Program-made: the position numbers and the translations under genes
Assembly (NCBI GenBank): GCA_013152945.1
Contig: JAADFL010000006.1
Location: 1-64,000, forward strand
From: Deltaproteobacteria bacterium
Lineage (GTDB): Bacteria; Myxococcota_A; JAADFL01
DNA length: 64,000 bases
Direction: 5' to 3'
Notes under the pieces: generated by a model
What the model was told of the DNA's origin: nothing
What the model saw: the letters and a program-made list of their open reading frames with translations, nothing else
Database searches by the model: none
Part shown: positions 6,264 through 43,972 of the stretch, piece after piece
Position numbering within the stretch: position 1 is the stretch's first letter
Layout of the letters: every line of letters starts with the position of its first letter

Positions 6264-8333
6264 TCAGAGGTCGTTGCATACCCCGTCACTCCCGGTATAA
6301 CTGCACCAAGTCATGGGCTGGGACATGTTGTTGCTCTCGTCGACCTCGGCAAAATCATTTCCCCAATCCACGTATGCAAAGGCAACGCCGATATACATTT
6401 CGTGCACTACCACCACCAAACCATCGTCAAGGCTCTCTCCGGGATCCAAATCAGCGTTAAAAGAATAATCTTCATCAGGATAGAAATCGAAAGAAGCCTC
6501 TCCCTTGCCTGACTCCTTGGCCACGACGGCGACCGTAACCCATCCCTTGAAATGGTCGGTGCTGCTGTTTACTATCCTGAAATGCACTGTAATCGAACTC
6601 TCGACTCCTTCACTCTCAAAACTCACGTACGAAATTCCTATGGTCAACTCGGTTCCTGTCACTGGCCCAGCATCCTCAATTGAAAAATCGTATCGCCCCC
6701 GGCCCGCGCCGATGATTTCAAACAAATAATGCCCGCTCCGTCCACGGGCTGAGTCTATAACAATTTTTTGTGCATCATTCCCGGGTGAGCATGAAAATTC
6801 GATGGGTTTGCCAGAAGAATCATAACGCCTGCTCACCTTGCGTTCATTGTCACTGTCGTACGTCCAATACCTGAGTGTTACATTCGTAGAGCAACCGGAC
6901 AACATGAGCTTGTATCGCCTGGTCGCATCCATGGGAGTCCAACTAATCCAATCCGTATCATCCGTCTCGTGCAGGTTGTGGTGCTGAACAGGGTCATCGG
7001 TCTTTATCTCGGTGGCACCTTTTACAGTGTCATCATCCTCGAACTCGTCACCTGCAACACAGTTCACGGTCACGTCCGTTACGTCGTCGGACAGGATTTT
7101 TCCCTTGCTCTTCATCACAGTGCAAAATTGTAGTTCGGGTTGGGAGTGAACCGCGACTTCGTAGTATTCGCCCGGTAAAAGCGCATTCGAGAACGTGTAG
7201 GTTCCGTCTTTCTTAACTGCCAACAGATCGGTTTGATTGTTCTCCAGTACAACTTCACCATCCAGGCCTGAAACCGTAACAGAAACCGTGTACGACATCT
7301 CGCATTTAGCTCCAACACAGTGAAGGTGGTATTCATCACCACCGGGACATGGGCTACATGCCTTTTCGCAGAGTAGGTAACCACTATTACAATCGATACT
7401 GCACCGGCCATCTGTGCATACGGGATTGCCATTGGGGTCGTCCGGGCAAGGCAGGCATCTTTGGCCGCAAGTATCCACTGAATCGTTTCTCTTACATTCT
7501 CCACTACACAAGTGATATCCCGAATCGCATTCTATGGTGCAACTCCCATTGAAGCAGCCGGGAGATCCATTCGGATCACCCGGACATGGAACGCACCTTC
7601 GGCCACACGAATCAGGTGATGAGCTGTTGAGACATTCCATGCCGCAGAAATGAAATCCCGGATCGCATTCGCATTCATGTAACATGGTATTACAACTTGC
7701 ATTGTCACTGCACTGTTCACTGAACGCACAACCCGGCCTGCATTCGGCCGTACCGAGATCGCAATAATAACCATCCGGACAAGGATCCCTGGAGCAATCG
7801 GGTGAACCTTTGCAGGTAGAGCCCTCGCAGACTTGTCCCTGCTTGCAGGGCCTGTCACATCCACCGCAGTGCCCGTGGCTTGACGAAACGTCCACACAGG
7901 CTCCACCGCAGTATTTGAGCTCCTCTGGACAGCGATCGGTATCCGTATCTGAATCACTGTCCGTGTCGGTATCCGCGTCAGTGTCCGAATCAGTGTCCAC
8001 ATCCAGGTCAATGTCCGTATCCGTGTCTGTATCGGAATCCGAGTCAGTATCGAGATCGAGGTCAATGTCCGTGTCCGAATCCCCCCGGCCCTTGCACTTT
8101 CCTATTTCCTCGCCTGCTTGCTTTTCGCAGGTTTCACCATCCTTGCAATCCCTGCTCGATGAACACCCCGTGATACACACCGAGTCAGCACATATCTGCC
8201 CCAAATTGCAATCATCGGAAGATGTGCATTTCTTTGCGGATGAATCGCCTGATGAGCAGGACATGGTCGAGACAGCCGTAAAACAAGCAAGGAATAAAAC
8301 AAGAATATTATTGACCGATTCAAACATCCTCAT
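6264..8333 (-). CDS. Cys-rich (DT)n lipoprotein with CARDB-like C-terminus
   Basis: 689 residues from ATG 8333, preceded by AAGGAGG; the frame extends seven codons further but without a ribosome site. The signal ends in a lipobox (VSTMSC). Order: two Cys-rich units, about 48 residues of Asp-rich repeat, five to six Cys-rich EGF/Dickkopf-like units (residues about 145-340), a carboxypeptidase-regulatory-like or prealbumin-type beta domain (VTVSGLDGEVVLENNQ), a pre-peptidase-like segment with DDTDWISW, and a CARDB-like immunoglobulin domain near the end (FAYVDWGNDFAEVDESNN). Probably a multidomain surface-anchored adhesin or binding protein. Function is unknown; the domain calls are from motif resemblance only. 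Confidence 0.75.
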   Translation of the reverse strand: MRMFESVNNILVLFLACFTAVSTMSCSSGDSSAKKCTSSDDCNLGQICADSVCITGCSSSRDCKDGETCEKQAGEEIGKCKGRGDSDTDIDLDLDTDSDSDTDTDTDIDLDVDTDSDTDADTDTDSDSDTDTDRCPEELKYCGGACVDVSSSHGHCGGCDRPCKQGQVCEGSTCKGSPDCSRDPCPDGYYCDLGTAECRPGCAFSEQCSDNASCNTMLHECECDPGFHFCGMECLNSSSPDSCGRRCVPCPGDPNGSPGCFNGSCTIECDSGYHLCSGECKRNDSVDTCGQRCLPCPDDPNGNPVCTDGRCSIDCNSGYLLCEKACSPCPGGDEYHLHCVGAKCEMSYTVSVTVSGLDGEVVLENNQTDLLAVKKDGTYTFSNALLPGEYYEVAVHSQPELQFCTVMKSKGKILSDDVTDVTVNCVAGDEFEDDDTVKGATEIKTDDPVQHHNLHETDDTDWISWTPMDATRRYKLMLSGCSTNVTLRYWTYDSDNERKVSRRYDSSGKPIEFSCSPGNDAQKIVIDSARGRSGHYLFEIIGAGRGRYDFSIEDAGPVTGTELTIGISYVSFESEGVESSITVHFRIVNSSTDHFKGWVTVAVVAKESGKGEASFDFYPDEDYSFNADLDPGESLDDGLVVVVHEMYIGVAFAYVDWGNDFAEVDESNNMSQPMTWCSYTGSDGVCNDL
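7936..8081 (-). repeat. (DT/DS/DL)n hexamer tract
   Basis: About 24 hexamer units coding Asp followed by Thr, Ser, Ile, Leu or Val. This tract is more degenerate than the one at 13078-13341, suggesting an older or slower-changing array. Confidence 0.8.
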
Positions 8334-35841: not shown

Positions 35842-35906
35842 GCAGGAAATGGCAGTAAGCAACACCGCTTGACTCCAGGATGTCGAAGTCATACCCCGGT
35901 TCCTGT

Positions 35907-35935
35907 TTGACACAGGGTCGCACGGTCCCTATTTT
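35907..35935 (+). promoter_or_regulatory. Sigma-70 promoter for sufC
   Basis: TTGACA (35907-35912), a 17-base spacer, and TATTTT (35930-35935), 32 bases upstream of the sufC start. Its form is the same as the site at 8581-8610, supporting both as vegetative promoters in this genome. Confidence 0.6.
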
Positions 35936-35966
35936 AATGCACCGGTTGAATACGCGGAGGAGCGAC

Positions 35967-36752
35967 ATGCTTAAAATCGAAAATCTTCACGTTGAAATCA
36001 AGGGCAGGGAAATCCTGCATGGTATCTCATTAGAGGTTCCGGATGGGGAAGTACATGCCCTGCTTGGACCCAATGGTTCGGGAAAGAGTACCTTGCTCAT
36101 GGCTGCCATGGGATTTTCCGGGTACGCCGTTACAAAGGGCCGGGTACTGCTTGACGGAAAAGATATCACCCACATACCCATCAACGAACGGGCACGGGCC
36201 GGACTAGGCATCGCATTTCAAAGGCCTCCCATAGTCAAAGGGATTAAAACGAAACATCTGGTTGCAATTTGCATGAACAACGGAAAGATACCGGGGCAAG
36301 ACACGAGCATGCGTAAGGACGTGGAAATTCTTGCAGAGGATATGCACTGCCGGCCGTTCCTGGACAGGGAGCTCAACTCAGGGCTGTCCGGAGGTGAAAT
36401 GAAACGTTCCGAACTCATGCAACTGTTGGCCCAGGATCCAAGGATGGTTCTGCTGGACGAGCCCGAGTCGGGCGTGGACATAGAGAACATCGCACTGCTC
36501 GGCAAGGCAATAAATAGGTTGCTGGGCAGGAACCCGGAGCCGAATGGAAAGGAATCGCTGAAAGAAAAACGAATTCAGAGGAGGAGATCCGCATTGATAA
36601 TCACCCACACCGGACACATTCTGAATTACCTGTTCTCTGATCGGGGTTACGTGATGATCGACGGGTACATAGCATGTGAAGGTAATCCCAGGGAACTTCT
36701 CGGCACCGTGGAGAAGTACGGGTACAAGGAGTGCTTGAAGTGCGTGGTATAA
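35967..36752 (+). CDS. sufC: Fe-S assembly ATPase SufC (SmsC-like)
   Basis: 261 residues from ATG 35967 with GGAGGAG before it. It is an ABC ATPase with Walker A GPNGSGKST, Q-loop AFQRPP, signature LSGGEMKRSE (the SufC form of LSGGQ), Walker B MVLLDEPESGVD and the switch His in LIITHTGHILNYL. A 20-residue charged insertion near residue 190 (NPEPNGKESLKEKR) is uncommon. SufC powers the scaffold that builds iron-sulfur clusters. It is followed by only one SufB/D-type gene, as in the two-component SUF-like minimal (SMS) arrangement of anaerobic prokaryotes. No sufS, sufU or regulator is in the window. Confidence 0.92.
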   Translation: MLKIENLHVEIKGREILHGISLEVPDGEVHALLGPNGSGKSTLLMAAMGFSGYAVTKGRVLLDGKDITHIPINERARAGLGIAFQRPPIVKGIKTKHLVAICMNNGKIPGQDTSMRKDVEILAEDMHCRPFLDRELNSGLSGGEMKRSELMQLLAQDPRMVLLDEPESGVDIENIALLGKAINRLLGRNPEPNGKESLKEKRIQRRRSALIITHTGHILNYLFSDRGYVMIDGYIACEGNPRELLGTVEKYGYKECLKCVV

Positions 36753-37802
36753 ACAAAAAACAGGAGAAATTCCTCAAGGTCGGAATAGACATCGAAGAGG
36801 ACTCCAGGAGCGGCACATTCATACAGGAAGAGGACAAGGTGGTTTCCTGCGGTGTGAAACAACAAGGAGTCGAGTTACTGCCCGTAAGGGATGCAATAAA
36901 TGGTAATTACAGGGAATACTTCGGAAAAGCACTGTCCGATGAAAGCGATCTCGATGATTTTTCAAATGGTTACTTCATACGGGCGTTACCGGGCGCCCAT
37001 CCGCTGTTTCCTGTTCAGGCCTTGCCTTTACATGTCCGAGGAAGGCTCGGTACAACAGGTCCACAACATCGTGGTGGCGGAAAATGGTTCGGACCTCAAT
37101 GTCTTGACAGGTTGTACATCCGGATCGAGCAGCGGCACCCATCTCGGCAACTCGGAATTCTATGTAAAAAAGGGTGCAACACTGCACTTCACCATGATCC
37201 ATGCCTGGGGGGAGGAGGTGGAAACCCTTCCCAGGACCGCTGTCATAGTTGAAGAAGGCGGCACCTTCATATCAGACTACATATCCATGCAGCCCGGAAA
37301 GAAGATAAAGATGTACCCTGCAGCATACCTGAAGGGCCCGGGTGCCACGGCCAGGTTCAACAGCGTTCTCGTGGGCCTGCCCGGGACATTAGTGGACATC
37401 GGTTCAAAGGTCTACCTACAGGCCGAAGGAACACGGGCCGAGGTCATCTCCAGAACCGTGTCCCTGGGAGGTGAGATAATCGCCAGAGGACGCCTGGTCG
37501 GAGAGGTCCCGGGAGTCAAAGCTCACTTGGAGTGCAAGGGCCTGCTCCTGCATCCTGAAGGAAAGATCTTGGCAATTCCCGAGCTTGAGGGCCGTGCCGT
37601 TGATCTCGAGATGACCCACGAGGCTGCAGTCGGCAAGATCGACAAGGAGGAGGTCGAATATCTTATGGCCAGGGGAATGTCAAAGGAGGACGCGATTTCG
37701 GCAATAGTTCGGGGCTTCCTGAATGTCGAAATCCTCGGGTTGCCTGCCAAGCTCAAGCAGGACTTGGACGAAATAGTATCCGAAAGCAACAAGGCAAGTT
37801 GA
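36740..37802 (+). CDS. SufB/SufD-family scaffold protein, split by a one-base frameshift
   Basis: Starts at GTG 36740 (AAGGAG eight bases upstream; an in-frame GTG at 36731 also exists) and overlaps the end of sufC. The first frame reads to [19 protein letters not shown], and the family sequence then continues one base later as [18 protein letters not shown]. One extra T near 37022 therefore breaks the gene. Joined, it gives about 353 residues, the size of the single SufB/D subunit of minimal systems. Conserved parts are [20 protein letters not shown] and the terminal [20 protein letters not shown] with VRGFL. As sequenced, the first frame stops at 37252. It could be a sequencing error, a recent lesion, or less likely programmed +1 shifting. 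Confidence 0.8.
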
Positions 37803-39395: not shown

Positions 39396-39589
39396 ATTTC
39401 ATTGGAAGTAAAAAACTTTTTGAGCTTGAAGGAATTTTAATGATAAGAGTTGGGTGACATCACCTGATTTTGGGTGATCAATCCTGTTTTTTTGAGTTGC
39501 GATAGGGCGCTTTTTGACCGGAGAAGTGGATCTTTAACTGCCAGGCTGCATTTCCATCCGTTTTTAGGCGCAAAAACCCCTTATTCAGT

Positions 39590-39850
39590 GTATCAGTGCT
39601 TTGAGAGTCGCCCTTGTGCCGTCCACAAGCAGATGCACCTTGTAGCCGAACCACTTGATAATCTTCCCTCACTTGCTCCCGTCTTTTCGAACGGCTCTGT
39701 CAGGGTTTGAAAAACCGGAGAAATCAACGTATGGCCACCATCTCCAGTTGAAATATCCTGGTGCACCCGGGGGAATAAACATTCCAGCCCCCTGGATCAC
39801 CCTGTCTTAAGGCAAGTTTACCACGGGTCGAACGGCTTGGAGTCAAATAT
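39590..39850 (-). pseudogene. Decayed IS transposase fragment
   Basis: Minus-strand translation gives RQGDPGAGMFIPP, then PGYFNWRWWPYVDFSGFS and NPDRAVRKDGSK, then GKIIKWFGYKVHLLVD, the sequence of a DDE-type IS transposase. A run of five C/G at 39788-39792 shifts the frame, and a TGA at 39669-39671 replaces an expected Trp. Nothing recognisable precedes or follows. The rest of 39396-39964 contains no gene. Confidence 0.75.
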
Positions 39851-39964
39851 TACTTGACTTCTATATCCCATTAACTTACTAAGATTTCCAATATCCCGGA
39901 ACGTGGCGAGCCTTGAGTGCAAGCCCCGGGCCATGCCGCGAACAGCTCGATCTGGAGGTGTGAG

Positions 39965-40669
39965 ATGTTTCTCTTCGAAAACGCTCCCTACCTTGACTGG
40001 GAGACTCTTTCCCCGGTTACCCGGCTGCTGATGAACCAGCTCCACTACATCGCCTTCACCTTCATGGTGGTGGTGTACACGTACTGGATAGTACAGATTT
40101 TCAAAATGCCCGCCGCAAAGGAAGGCACACCGCCGAGGGGGGACCATGACAAGGGAATCCGCTATGCATACATGACGCTGGCAATGCCGTGGGAACTGGA
40201 AAGCACGCGCAAGCACCTTGGTCGCTGGTTCCAGTTCGCCTTTTTCCACATAGCAATGGCAGCCGGTATTGCCACCGCCTTCGTGATGCCTATATCACAC
40301 CAGGCTATGCGTAACCCTATAGTCATTCTCGGATTGCAGGTGATCTTCGCCATAGCGGTACTCGTGGGGCTAATCCGACTGTCCCGAAGGATCTTTTTGC
40401 CGGCCATAAGGAAGATAAGCCACCCGGATGACTACTTCTGCCTGTTCCTCCTGGTCGCATGGATGGTCGCGGGCATACCCGCCGTCACTCAGAAGAACGA
40501 GGCTTCGCTGACTGCGTTTTACGCCTTGGCTACGTTTTTCCTGTTCTACGTCCCCTTCAGCAAGATCTCTCACTACATCTATTGGTTCTTCCTCCGTTAC
40601 CACATGGGCAAGCACTTCGGCCACAGGGGCGTATACCCGAAGAAATCGGTAACCGACAGTATTGCATGA
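39965..40669 (+). CDS. NarI/DsrM-like membrane cytochrome b subunit
   Basis: 234 residues from ATG 39965, with GGAGGTG upstream. There are five predicted membrane helices. Histidines sit where NarI/DsrM/HdrE-type proteins bind two b hemes: QLHYIAF in the first helix, FFHIAMAAGIATAFVMPISHQ in the next, and FSKISHYIYWFFLRYHMGKHFGH at the end. Such proteins exchange electrons between the quinone pool and a cytoplasmic iron-sulfur partner. Here the partner gene begins 22 bases later. The codon use is GC-rich, like the rest of this operon and unlike the genes on both sides. Confidence 0.8.
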   Translation: MFLFENAPYLDWETLSPVTRLLMNQLHYIAFTFMVVVYTYWIVQIFKMPAAKEGTPPRGDHDKGIRYAYMTLAMPWELESTRKHLGRWFQFAFFHIAMAAGIATAFVMPISHQAMRNPIVILGLQVIFAIAVLVGLIRLSRRIFLPAIRKISHPDDYFCLFLLVAWMVAGIPAVTQKNEASLTAFYALATFFLFYVPFSKISHYIYWFFLRYHMGKHFGHRGVYPKKSVTDSIA

Positions 40670-40691
40670 TAAAGCAAGGAGGAGCGATACT

Positions 40692-42446
40692 ATGAAGCGT
40701 TCGGAAAAGGCACAAAAGGTCGTCGATGGATTCCAGGAGTCGGTAAAGTTGAGGCAGATGCTGCTCTCCCTTGCGGGTTGCGCTCACTGCGGCCTTTGCA
40801 ACGACTCATGTCATTACTATTTGGCCACAGGTGATCCAGAGATGACTCCCGCCGCCAAATCTGACAAGATCAGGCGGCTGTACAAGTATCACAATGATCG
40901 GCTCGGCCGTATCTTTCCCTGGTGGGTCGGGGGCGAGACCCTCAAGACAGACGAGGATCTGGAAGAGCTCAAGGACATAGTGTACGGATCCTGTACCATG
41001 TGCAGGCGCTGCACGTTCAATTGTCCCTTCGGCATAGACACGGCCCTCTTGATGAGAACCGCTCGCGGTTTGATTACCGCACAGGGAGTGGCGCCGGAAG
41101 GAATACTGAGCGTTATGAAGGACCAGTGGGAGATAGGCAACCAGATGGGTGTCACCCCGAAGGACTACATCGAGACCCTCGAGTGGCTGGAGGAGGAGGT
41201 CCAGGACGAACTCCCTGATTTCAAGGTGCCTATAGACAAGGAAGGCGCGGATATCGTGTACGTCATCAACCCCAGGGAGGTCAAGTACGCCCCGCAGTCG
41301 CTCATGGCGGCATTCAAGATATTCCACTTGGCCGGGGAGAACTGGACCATGCCGAGCCAAGGTTGGGACAACACCAACTTCGGCCTTTTCTCAGGCGACA
41401 ACAAGCTCGGAGCCCACATGGGCAACCTTGCCTTTAACCAAGCCAAGAAGCTCGGGGTGAAAAAGATGGTGATCTCCGAGTGCGGTCACGGCTTCAGAAG
41501 CACCAAGTGGGAATCCCCCAACTGGGCCAAGGCCAACCCCTTACCGTTCGAGATCGAGAGCATCCTGGAGACCATGGTGCGTTACGTGAACCAGGGACGG
41601 ATCGTGCTGGACCGCACCCGGAACAAGGAGCCGGTCACTTACCACGACCCATGCAACCTGTCTCGCAGCGCCGGCATAACCGAGGAACCGAGGTTCCTGC
41701 TCAAGCGCTCCTGCATGGACTTCAGGGAGATGTACCCGAACAGGCAGGACAGCTTCTGCTGCACCGGCGGAGGCGGCGCCATGTCCATGTCCGAGTACGC
41801 CTCTAAAAGGATCGAGGTAGGAAGAATCAAGGCCGATCAGATCCGAGCCACAGGAGCCAAGCACGTTGCCACCGCCTGCCACAACTGCGAGGACGGTCTG
41901 TCCGACCTGGTAAAGCACTACAAGCTGGGCGTGACGGTCAAGAACGTGTGCGAGTTCGTGGCCGACGCCTGCGCCCTCCCCGAAGAGAAACGCAAGCTGG
42001 TTTCCATGCCCATCGCGGACATTGCCAAGGGAAAGAAGATCCTGGTCATCGACGATCAGCCTGATGTGGTCCAGTACCTGGAGGCCTTCCTAAAGGATCA
42101 GGGATTCAGTGTTGTAATCGCCATGAACGGAGCGCAAGGCTTGGCAAAGGCCAAGCAGGAGAGGCCTGACCTGATCACCTTGGATATAACCATGCCGGGC
42201 AAGTCCGGCATAGAGGTCTTCACCGCCTTGAGAAAGGATCCCGATACCAAGGATATTCCGGTGTTCATAATCACCGGGGTCATGAACTTCAGGCAACTTA
42301 TGTACTACCGCGAAGTCATGCCGCCGGACGCTTACATGGAGAAACCGATCGACACGGAGGCCCTGCTCTTGAACTTGAGGAGGCTCCTCGACGAGAGAAA
42401 ACACGGCTCAAAGCCGGCGGACACGGCCAACATGACCGCCGTGTAG
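40692..42446 (+). CDS. DsrK/HdrD-like iron-sulfur oxidoreductase fused to a receiver domain
   Basis: 584 residues from ATG 40692, with AAGGAGGAG upstream. Two 4Fe-4S motifs lie at Cys30/33/36/40 (CAHCGLCNDSCH) and Cys101/104/107/111. A CCG-type domain follows with ISECGHGFR, DPCNLSRSAGI, CCTGGGG (Cys356-357) and ACHNC (Cys396/399), the catalytic cluster site of heterodisulfide-reductase-like proteins such as DsrK and HdrD. Residues about 447-565 are a complete CheY-like receiver: ILVIDDQ acidic pair, phosphoacceptor Asp498 in LITLDITMPG, IITG and the MEKP lysine. I know of no standard DsrK with this addition. It lies between the membrane partner and a histidine kinase. Confidence 0.88.
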   Translation: MKRSEKAQKVVDGFQESVKLRQMLLSLAGCAHCGLCNDSCHYYLATGDPEMTPAAKSDKIRRLYKYHNDRLGRIFPWWVGGETLKTDEDLEELKDIVYGSCTMCRRCTFNCPFGIDTALLMRTARGLITAQGVAPEGILSVMKDQWEIGNQMGVTPKDYIETLEWLEEEVQDELPDFKVPIDKEGADIVYVINPREVKYAPQSLMAAFKIFHLAGENWTMPSQGWDNTNFGLFSGDNKLGAHMGNLAFNQAKKLGVKKMVISECGHGFRSTKWESPNWAKANPLPFEIESILETMVRYVNQGRIVLDRTRNKEPVTYHDPCNLSRSAGITEEPRFLLKRSCMDFREMYPNRQDSFCCTGGGGAMSMSEYASKRIEVGRIKADQIRATGAKHVATACHNCEDGLSDLVKHYKLGVTVKNVCEFVADACALPEEKRKLVSMPIADIAKGKKILVIDDQPDVVQYLEAFLKDQGFSVVIAMNGAQGLAKAKQERPDLITLDITMPGKSGIEVFTALRKDPDTKDIPVFIITGVMNFRQLMYYREVMPPDAYMEKPIDTEALLLNLRRLLDERKHGSKPADTANMTAV

Positions 42447-42520
42447 CATCGGCGCGGTCTCAATGCATGCTCGCGCCCCAGTGTACGTCCGCCCGGGGTT
42501 GCGATCAGGAGGCTCTGGCC

Positions 42521-43972
42521 ATGTCGGAGGTTATAACTTTCGTAGGCGGCGACTCGCCGACCAGCAAGCTCGGTTACGAGGAGATTTTCAAAGCTACCCC
42601 GTGCTTCCTTACGGTCCAGGATCACAACTATCGGATAATCTCCGCAAACGATCTGCACAGGAAGGTGTTCGGCGAGGGCATCGGCAAGTACTGTTACGAG
42701 GTGTACAAGAAGCGCACAGAGCGGTGCCGCGACTGCCCTGTCAACGAGACCTTCGAGGACGGTCTCATCCATCGCAGCGAGCAGGATGTGGTGCTGCCTG
42801 ACGGGCGTAAGATGCCCATCCTTGCTTACACCGCGCCTATAACCGATTCCGACGGGACGGTCACCCACGCAGTGAAAGTGAGCGCCGACATCACGCCTGT
42901 AAAGCTTCTCGAGGAAAAGCTGCGCGAGAGCCGTGAGCGCTTCAGGCTACTTTTCGAGGAGGTGCCCTGCTACATCTCGGTCCAGGATCGCGATCTCAAG
43001 ATAGTACAAGCCAACAGCGCCTTCAAGCGCGACTTCGGAGACTACATAGGCGCCGCCTACTGCTACGAGGTGTACAAGCGCAGGGGAGAACCCTGCATCA
43101 GATGCCCTGTGGCCAAGAGCTTCAGCGACGGCCGGAGCCACCAGAGCGAGGAGGTGGTCATCGCGCGAGACGGCCAGCCTATAAGCACGTTGGTTATCAC
43201 CGCCCCGATACTCGACACGAACGGCAAGGTGATCCAGGTCATGGAGGTGTCCACCAACATCACGGACGTTCGGAAGCTGCAGGATCAGCTCTCCCAGCTC
43301 GGCCTCCTCGTGGGCTCCATCTCCCACGGCATCAAGGGCCTGCTCACCGGGCTGGACGGCGGCATGTACCTAATGAACACCGGGTTTGAGAACAACCGTC
43401 CGGATAGGATCGAGAAAGGCTGGAAGATGATCCGCCGCAACGTGGAGCAGGTCAGGAGCATAGTGCTGGACCTGCTCTACATAGCCAAGGAGAGGGAGCC
43501 CGAGTGGCATGAGGTGGACATACTGGAGCTGTTGAAGGACGTGTCCCGCATGTTCGCAAAGAAGGCCGCTGATATGGGCATAAAGCTCCGGGTGGAACTG
43601 GCCCCTGACATAGGCACCGCCCAGGCGGACCAGAAGTCCTTGAAGGCCAGCCTGGTCAACATACTGGAGAACTCAATAGACGCATGCCGCGTGGACACCA
43701 AGGATGTAAGTCACAGTATATCGCTGGTTGGAAACGGTTCGACCGACGAGGTCACAATCGTGGTGGAGGACAACGGGATCGGCATGGACCAGGAGACCAA
43801 GTCCTTGATCTTCAGCCTGTTCTTCTCCTCAAAGGGAATGGAGGGCACGGGTCTGGGCCTCTTCATAGCCAACAAGGTGGTGGAAAAGCACGGAGGCACC
43901 ATATCGGTCGAATCCGAGCCCGGCAACGGAACGCGCTTCACGATCAAGCTCCCCAGGCAGAGGCGGGAGTAA
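42521..43972 (+). CDS. PAS-PAS sensor histidine kinase with paired Cys motifs
   Basis: 483 residues from ATG 42521 with AGGAGG upstream. There are no membrane helices, so it is cytoplasmic. Two PAS domains (about 18-125 and 142-250) each carry the same signature, CYEVYKKRTERCRDCP (Cys58/69/72) and CYEVYKRRGEPCIRCP (Cys181/192/195). Next come the phosphorylation helix ISHGIKG (His269), then ATP-binding boxes: NILENSIDA, VEDNGIGMD, FSSKGMEGTGLGLF and NGTRFTIKLP. The Cys triads could bind a metal or cluster, or sense thiol redox state. It follows the receiver-fused oxidoreductase by 74 bases, and no separate response regulator is nearby. Confidence 0.9.
   Translation: MSEVITFVGGDSPTSKLGYEEIFKATPCFLTVQDHNYRIISANDLHRKVFGEGIGKYCYEVYKKRTERCRDCPVNETFEDGLIHRSEQDVVLPDGRKMPILAYTAPITDSDGTVTHAVKVSADITPVKLLEEKLRESRERFRLLFEEVPCYISVQDRDLKIVQANSAFKRDFGDYIGAAYCYEVYKRRGEPCIRCPVAKSFSDGRSHQSEEVVIARDGQPISTLVITAPILDTNGKVIQVMEVSTNITDVRKLQDQLSQLGLLVGSISHGIKGLLTGLDGGMYLMNTGFENNRPDRIEKGWKMIRRNVEQVRSIVLDLLYIAKEREPEWHEVDILELLKDVSRMFAKKAADMGIKLRVELAPDIGTAQADQKSLKASLVNILENSIDACRVDTKDVSHSISLVGNGSTDEVTIVVEDNGIGMDQETKSLIFSLFFSSKGMEGTGLGLFIANKVVEKHGGTISVESEPGNGTRFTIKLPRQRRE

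Follow-up and report, generated by a model that had tools for sequence, protein, structure and literature searches.

A receiver domain fused to the iron-sulfur subunit of a TmcBC/HmcEF/DsrMK-class oxidoreductase and encoded beside a histidine kinase: candidate phosphotransfer control of a respiratory complex

Background

How electrons are divided among the redundant Dsr, Tmc, Hmc and Qmo membrane complexes of sulfate and sulfite reducers is an open question. Signalling genes accompany some of these systems: the receiver Rrf1 and the regulator Rrf2 lie next to the hmc operon of D. vulgaris, and DVU0259 is presumably a single-domain receiver near the tmc genes of the same organism. The subject of this report is a three-gene operon at positions 39965-43972 of contig JAADFL010000006.1, within the 64,000-nucleotide stretch that was analysed as a whole (the window), in which a receiver has become part of the iron-sulfur subunit itself. 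We put at roughly 55% the probability that these genes specify a quinone-linked membrane oxidoreductase of the TmcBC/HmcEF/DsrMK class that bears its own receiver on the catalytic iron-sulfur subunit, along with the kinase for this receiver, and that the flow of electrons through the complex is thereby gated.

On the cytoplasmic side, the partners of Tmc and Hmc have yet to be settled (PMC4215793). A preliminary description of the window, made from the sequence alone, had held direct phosphorelay control of such an enzyme to be undescribed, and the open-access literature yielded neither a DsrK/TmcB/HdrD-type protein with a fused receiver nor phosphotransfer control of such a complex. What is not new is the link at the level of the neighbourhood, since Tmc and Hmc gene clusters next to response regulator and histidine kinase genes are already in print (PMC5109826). 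The parts thus belong to known classes; the mechanism of control by phosphotransfer would, if confirmed, be new to respiration.

Architecture of the operon

The three genes and their domains, and the DNA in front of them, are located in the window as follows. KR is used as shorthand for the DsrK/TmcB/HmcF-like CCG protein fused in frame to a C-terminal receiver.

39965..40669, plus strand: cytochrome b membrane subunit, NarI/HmcE/TmcC-like, 234 residues; H95, H203 and H220 invariant among 13 relatives
40692..42446, plus strand: KR, iron-sulfur (CCG) protein with C-terminal receiver, 584 residues; from profile matches and alignment
40779..41024, plus strand: two 4Fe-4S motifs of KR, C30/33/36/40 and C101/104/107/111; invariant alignment columns
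41652..41888, plus strand: CCG domain of KR, predicted non-cubane 4Fe-4S site (C321, C356-C357, C396, C399); Pfam CCG 6e-11
42030..42407, plus strand: receiver domain of KR, residues ~447-572; Response_reg 6e-20, nearest curated family DVU0259/DivK
42521..43972, plus strand: soluble PAS-PAS histidine kinase, 483 residues; HATPase_c 3e-25, alternative start 42467
42575..42901, plus strand: PAS1 of the kinase with invariant C58, C69 and C72 (motif CYE...C..CP); from alignment
42953..43273, plus strand: PAS2 of the kinase with invariant C150, C181, C192 and C195, a candidate redox or metal site; from alignment
39396..39964, no strand assigned: degraded non-coding DNA with a transposase-like remnant, at the place of rrf2 in most relatives

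The profile matches bear out the arrangement first read from the letters, namely a cytochrome b, a receiver-carrying iron-sulfur protein and a PAS-PAS kinase in one direction, and the remark that no DNA-binding response regulator lies at the locus also stands. Gaps of 22 bp (cytochrome b to KR) and 74 bp (KR to kinase) separate the genes, the latter with the kinase start at 42521, which is preferred over 42467 because AGGAGG lies directly upstream of it. The operon structure is judged from this spacing and from its recurrence; scans for promoters and terminators gave matches no more frequent than in shuffled sequence. A second receiver of the KR-receiver class is found nowhere in the 64-kb window.

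The fused receiver has everything expected of a two-component receiver: the acidic pair D454/D455, the phospho-acceptor D498 (codon 42183-42185), T528 and K551, all invariant in the alignment, and a receiver fold that matches DivK and other receivers. Only 54-75 residues lie between the last CCG cysteines and the acidic pair, and R534, L536, Y538, V542 and P545 in the alpha4 region are conserved among fused receivers. An AlphaFold model of KR recovers the two domain folds, matching EtfD (9ojn) in the CCG part and DivK in the receiver. On the side of the kinase, the phospho-acceptor H269 (codon 43325-43327), N380 and the G1 and G2 boxes are intact and invariant in the kinase alignment. The seven PAS cysteines listed above are the same in 10/10 aligned kinases, and this invariance suggests that the Cys-rich PAS domains sense redox state or a metal. 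No transmembrane segment is predicted in the kinase relatives, and when the kinase profile was compared with PDB entries, matches were confined to the catalytic half, the Cys-rich PAS domains having none.

Family placement of the oxidoreductase

A single operon here combines a protein that has two 4Fe-4S motifs and one CCG motif with a NarI-like subunit whose histidines are conserved, the combination that marks the superfamily of CCG-domain membrane oxidoreductases (HdrD/DsrK/TmcB-like proteins with a NarI-like cytochrome b). Among the NCBIfam profiles, KR scores best against TmcB (1e-98, 330.5 bits, cut-off 735), followed by HmcF (6e-95, 318.7 bits, cut-off 750) and DsrK (1e-77, 261.7 bits, cut-off 400). 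The cytochrome b behaves likewise, with HmcE (9e-11, 41.8 bits, cut-off 275) ahead of TmcC (4e-9, 36.2 bits, cut-off 240) and DsrM (2e-5, 24.1 bits, cut-off 300), and its NarI Pfam match is below threshold at 19.3 vs 22.9 bits. The complex was initially called DsrMK-like; by these profiles, its subunits are nearer to TmcB/HmcF and HmcE/TmcC than to DsrK/DsrM. Since KR stays below the curated cut-offs for TmcB, HmcF and DsrK, it forms a separate subfamily. The receiver of KR has DVU0259 (NF045717) as its nearest family, again below the cut-off (6e-26, 90.9 bits, against 160).

Neither TmcA nor TmcD was seen beside the KR operons that were inspected, no CxxCH protein directly adjoins them, and no further Hmc subunits (HmcA-D) occur at KR loci. 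By analogy with tmc, a multihaem cytochrome gene had been expected in front of KR, but the genes there turned out to be rrf2. TmcA is missing from some published Tmc operons as well (PMC10553843). A search with the TmcB profile brought up three TmcB-like loci in the phylum of the window (710-718 bits), none with an adjacent free receiver of the KR-receiver class; one of them has an NtrC-like regulator and a kinase further off, and two of the three lie on short contigs. In what follows, G, L and C labels denote genomes, loci and contigs, G000 being the genome of the window. This genome holds a separate canonical DsrMKJOP on contig C217, with DsrK (735 bits) and DsrM (525 bits) over their cut-offs. 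Two further DsrK-like matches, G000:C88:2357-3670 and G377:C26:6579-7859, each span one in-frame TGA; possible explanations are read-through where the gene ends and selenocysteine in a CCG protein.

Recurrence of the module and origin of the fusion

Relatives were collected by a scan of one genome per species, which gave 11, and by searches in the phylum of the window, which gave four more genomes; most are metagenome-assembled, and group names are taken from record titles and tree labels. The same three-gene order, whose search in other genomes had been proposed at the outset, recurs with the fusion in Desulfobacterales, Myxococcota, Acidobacteriota, Gemmatimonadota, Poribacteria and Latescibacterota as well as in the window's own phylum, and in every complete relative the receiver is fused in frame, with the cytochrome b directly upstream and the kinase directly downstream. 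Two loci are incomplete: in G007 the kinase is apparently split over two contigs, and the Latescibacterota locus (L021) is cut by masked bases. Open reading frames outside the window were called heuristically, and the homology check covers the genes discussed. A frame of 816 residues in L022 that resembled a fusion of cytochrome b with DsrK was rejected, the extra 238 codons being out of frame with the true cytochrome b gene at 7294-7965.

Independent genomes show the fusion unbroken at 14 other loci, so that it is not an artefact of assembly. In a tree of 37 receivers, the 15 fused ones form one side of a single branch (support 88/99), and the fusion state requires one change vs 11.9 for shuffled labels. 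This is consistent with one fusion event, partly spread by horizontal transfer, a share of transfer that is suggested by the presence of KR in only 5/377 genomes of the phylum sample.

Upstream of the cytochrome b there is in most relatives a regulator of the Rrf2 family (Pfam Rrf2 1e-27 to 1e-42), which has been lost at the locus of the window. The minus-strand transposase-like remnant at window 39396-39964, where relatives have rrf2, reads VDGTRATLKALIH. About 2 kb upstream of the operon, at window 35880-37802, lie genes for a SufC-like ATPase and a SufB/D-like protein (Fe-S cluster assembly), separated from it by a B12-binding radical SAM gene.

Association with dissimilatory sulfite reductase

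Within the phylum sample, dsrA passes its cut-off in 5/188 genomes, and KR is present in four of these five and in none of the 183 negative ones (p about 1e-7, uncorrected for relatedness). The KR genomes of the other collection passed the dsrA cut-off in 9/11 cases, the remaining two having dsrA-like fragments at contig ends or beside a gap. DsrC was found in five of the six KR carriers tested; the sixth, G316, is incomplete and showed nothing of the module beyond the kinase and a receiver. That KR tracks dsrA, with DsrC present in carriers, points to a function of the module in the Dsr pathway. CCG proteins of related complexes are predicted to act on DsrC (PMC10553843, PMC4215793). A small reading frame in L032, considered as DsrD, had no Pfam match and was dropped.

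Free receivers and a second complex, DsrM2-DsrK2

At most KR loci a free single-domain receiver adjoins the operon. In G000, G236 and G387, which had none there in the first survey, the best-matching one follows directly after a second pair of genes, DsrM2-DsrK2. This DsrK2 is present in 16/16 KR genomes (in G385 as the C-terminal part only, at a contig end) and is distinct from canonical DsrK: in G000 it remains under the curated cut-off, which the DsrMK of C217 exceeds. Of the full DsrK2 loci, 10/15 have a free receiver within 1.5 kb, as compared with 1/10 for the other DsrK-like paralogues of these genomes (Fisher p 0.012). The remaining five (G007, G178, G378, G379 and G380) all belong to genomes with a free receiver beside KR; each of the 16 KR genomes therefore has one beside the KR-kinase operon, beside DsrM2-DsrK2, or in both places. 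In L017 the KR operon and a DsrM2-DsrK2-receiver set are convergent neighbours. The free receivers score 99-110 bits against the DVU0259 family (NF045717), under the cut-off of 160.

In the genome of the window, the DsrM2-DsrK2 pair and the free DVU0259-type receiver after it are found on G000:C167 (L028:7029-9279), with an Rrf2 gene at L028:10021-10632; further upstream are a class III multihaem cytochrome and a TAT-type Fe-S protein. In L012:1686-6354, on the opposite strand beside the KR operon, a NarI-like cytochrome b, a DsrK-like protein, a free receiver and a HAMP/PAS kinase form a parallel module in which the receiver is unfused.

A survey of kinase neighbourhoods, from which G178:C308 (L053) was left out, showed that the strongest homologues in the phylum (>690 bits) adjoin KR and that weaker ones (G007:C26, G000:C103 and G178:C89) adjoin single-domain receivers. 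Kinase homologues consistently sitting beside ordinary response regulators would have refuted the reading that the kinase acts on the oxidoreductase itself; no DNA-binding response regulator was found next to any homologue examined, all neighbouring receivers being single-domain or DsrK-fused. The paralogue on G000:C103 (L029:2640-4728), a PAS kinase with 35% identity, is flanked by two such single-domain receivers, and upstream of this module are a GGDEF-like protein and a small methyltransferase-like gene. An operon-like run on G007:C26 (L038:1015-10653) encodes a sigma-54 activator, a DsrK-like protein, an Fe-S protein and an NrfD fused to class III haems; it also holds a kinase of the same family and two free receivers, and thus represents another receiver-linked redox complex.

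Proposed mechanism and alternatives

In the mechanism proposed here, the Cys-rich PAS domains would let the soluble kinase respond to redox or sulfur conditions in the cytoplasm; it would then autophosphorylate on H269, and D498 of the fused receiver would accept the phosphoryl group from it. The phosphorylated receiver, held on a short linker to the CCG domain, would then shift its contact with the iron-sulfur protein or its partner, and thereby gate electron flow between the quinone pool and a cytoplasmic acceptor, the likeliest candidates being DsrC and other thiol carriers of the Dsr pathway. An effect of D498 phosphorylation on access or activity at the CCG site is the favoured version, because the linker is short and fairly constant and the alpha4 positions are conserved. 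Being covalently attached, the receiver makes direct control of the complex testable by a single residue, D498.

The same kinase probably also phosphorylates the free DVU0259-type receiver that would serve DsrM2-DsrK2, acting on this complex as the fused receiver does on KR, and since the kinase would then serve both receivers, the circuit may balance two electron routes. This wider scheme, in which one redox-sensing kinase phosphorylates receivers on two quinone-linked DsrMK-type complexes (fused in KR, free with DsrM2K2) and switches electron flow post-translationally in dsrAB-bearing bacteria of several phyla, is offered tentatively and is more doubtful than the gating of the KR complex itself.

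The claim of the preliminary description that the kinase acts on the oxidoreductase's own receiver is strengthened by the invariance of the acceptor and kinase residues and by the recurrence of gene order and fusion; as a circuit of one kinase and one target it was incomplete, because in relatives two or more receivers are candidates for the kinase: that of KR, and a free one that adjoins either the kinase gene or DsrM2K2. Its companion claim, that control does not run through transcription, holds insofar as no DNA-binding regulator lies by the kinase; transcriptional control is not absent from the module, since most relatives carry the upstream Rrf2-family factor that the window has lost.

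Several points weigh against the gating of electron flow by the fused receiver. This domain could serve docking or sensing instead, or could be a sink for a kinase whose main target is the free receiver. The KR model has a mean pLDDT of 72, with cluster loops <50, and as a prediction of only moderate quality does not allow a receiver-CCG contact to be read from it. The DsrM2K2 link rests on co-occurrence, and the p-values of about 1e-7 and 0.012 overstate the certainty, because genomes are not independent draws.

Among the alternatives, a rather unlikely one casts the oxidoreductase as the sensor: the fused receiver would tether the kinase, electron flux would tune it, and the real output would be the free receiver and its binding partner. 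The cbb3 oxidase is thought to signal to RegB/PrrB, a kinase without a membrane segment would need a tether to read a membrane complex, and every KR genome pairs the module with free receivers, all of one class. Nevertheless, the fused receiver has lost none of its catalytic residues, although a pure tether could do without them, the kinase has Cys-rich sensor domains of its own, and the free receivers tested carry no output domain.

Less probable still is a reading in which DsrM2K2 is controlled by the free receiver and the fused one serves chiefly as a phosphate sink, in the manner of CheY1 in Sinorhizobium chemotaxis, or as a specificity filter. Most loci do provide two receivers per kinase, the free one often adjoining DsrM2K2; yet a sink has no need for covalent attachment to the iron-sulfur subunit at a conserved short spacing, nor does it account for the alpha4 positions that the fused receivers conserve as their own. 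Ordinary two-component gene regulation, in which the kinase would signal to a DNA-binding regulator encoded at another locus and the three genes would be clustered loosely or by chance, is very improbable: most histidine kinases act on transcription and an Rrf2 factor is often upstream in relatives, but Rrf2 proteins have no receiver, the receivers adjoining kinase homologues are single-domain, and the in-frame fusion recurs across phyla, even if some regulators in the tmc/hmc clusters of D. multivorans have been described as binding DNA (PMC5109826).

Comparison with known systems

The gating of the KR complex by its own receiver can be set against four kinds of described system. Tmc of Desulfovibrio (TmcB/TmcC) shares the CCG iron-sulfur protein, the small cytochrome b and a DVU0259-type receiver as neighbour, whereas the KR locus fuses the receiver to the iron-sulfur subunit, and no TmcA or TmcD was seen next to the KR operons inspected. 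In Hmc of D. vulgaris, the HmcE/HmcF pair resembles the subunits described here, and rrf1/rrf2 are paralleled by the KR receiver and the rrf2 of KR loci; the NrfD, ferredoxin-like and 16-haem subunits of Hmc are absent, however, and the receiver is fused, with the kinase adjacent. The fused receiver offers an explanation for the clustering of response-regulator genes with tmc and hmc. DsrMKJOP and DsrMK follow the same logic of a cytochrome b with a CCG protein, and KR occurs in dsrAB-bearing genomes, but canonical DsrK has no receiver. Finally, CheB, PleD/WspR and RpfG are response regulators with enzymatic outputs, in which, as in KR, a receiver is fused to an enzyme under a histidine kinase. 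Their outputs are signalling enzymes, in contrast to the iron-sulfur subunit of a membrane respiratory complex; His-Asp control of a respiratory oxidoreductase would, if true, extend the outputs of two-component systems from signalling enzymes and DNA binding to energy metabolism.

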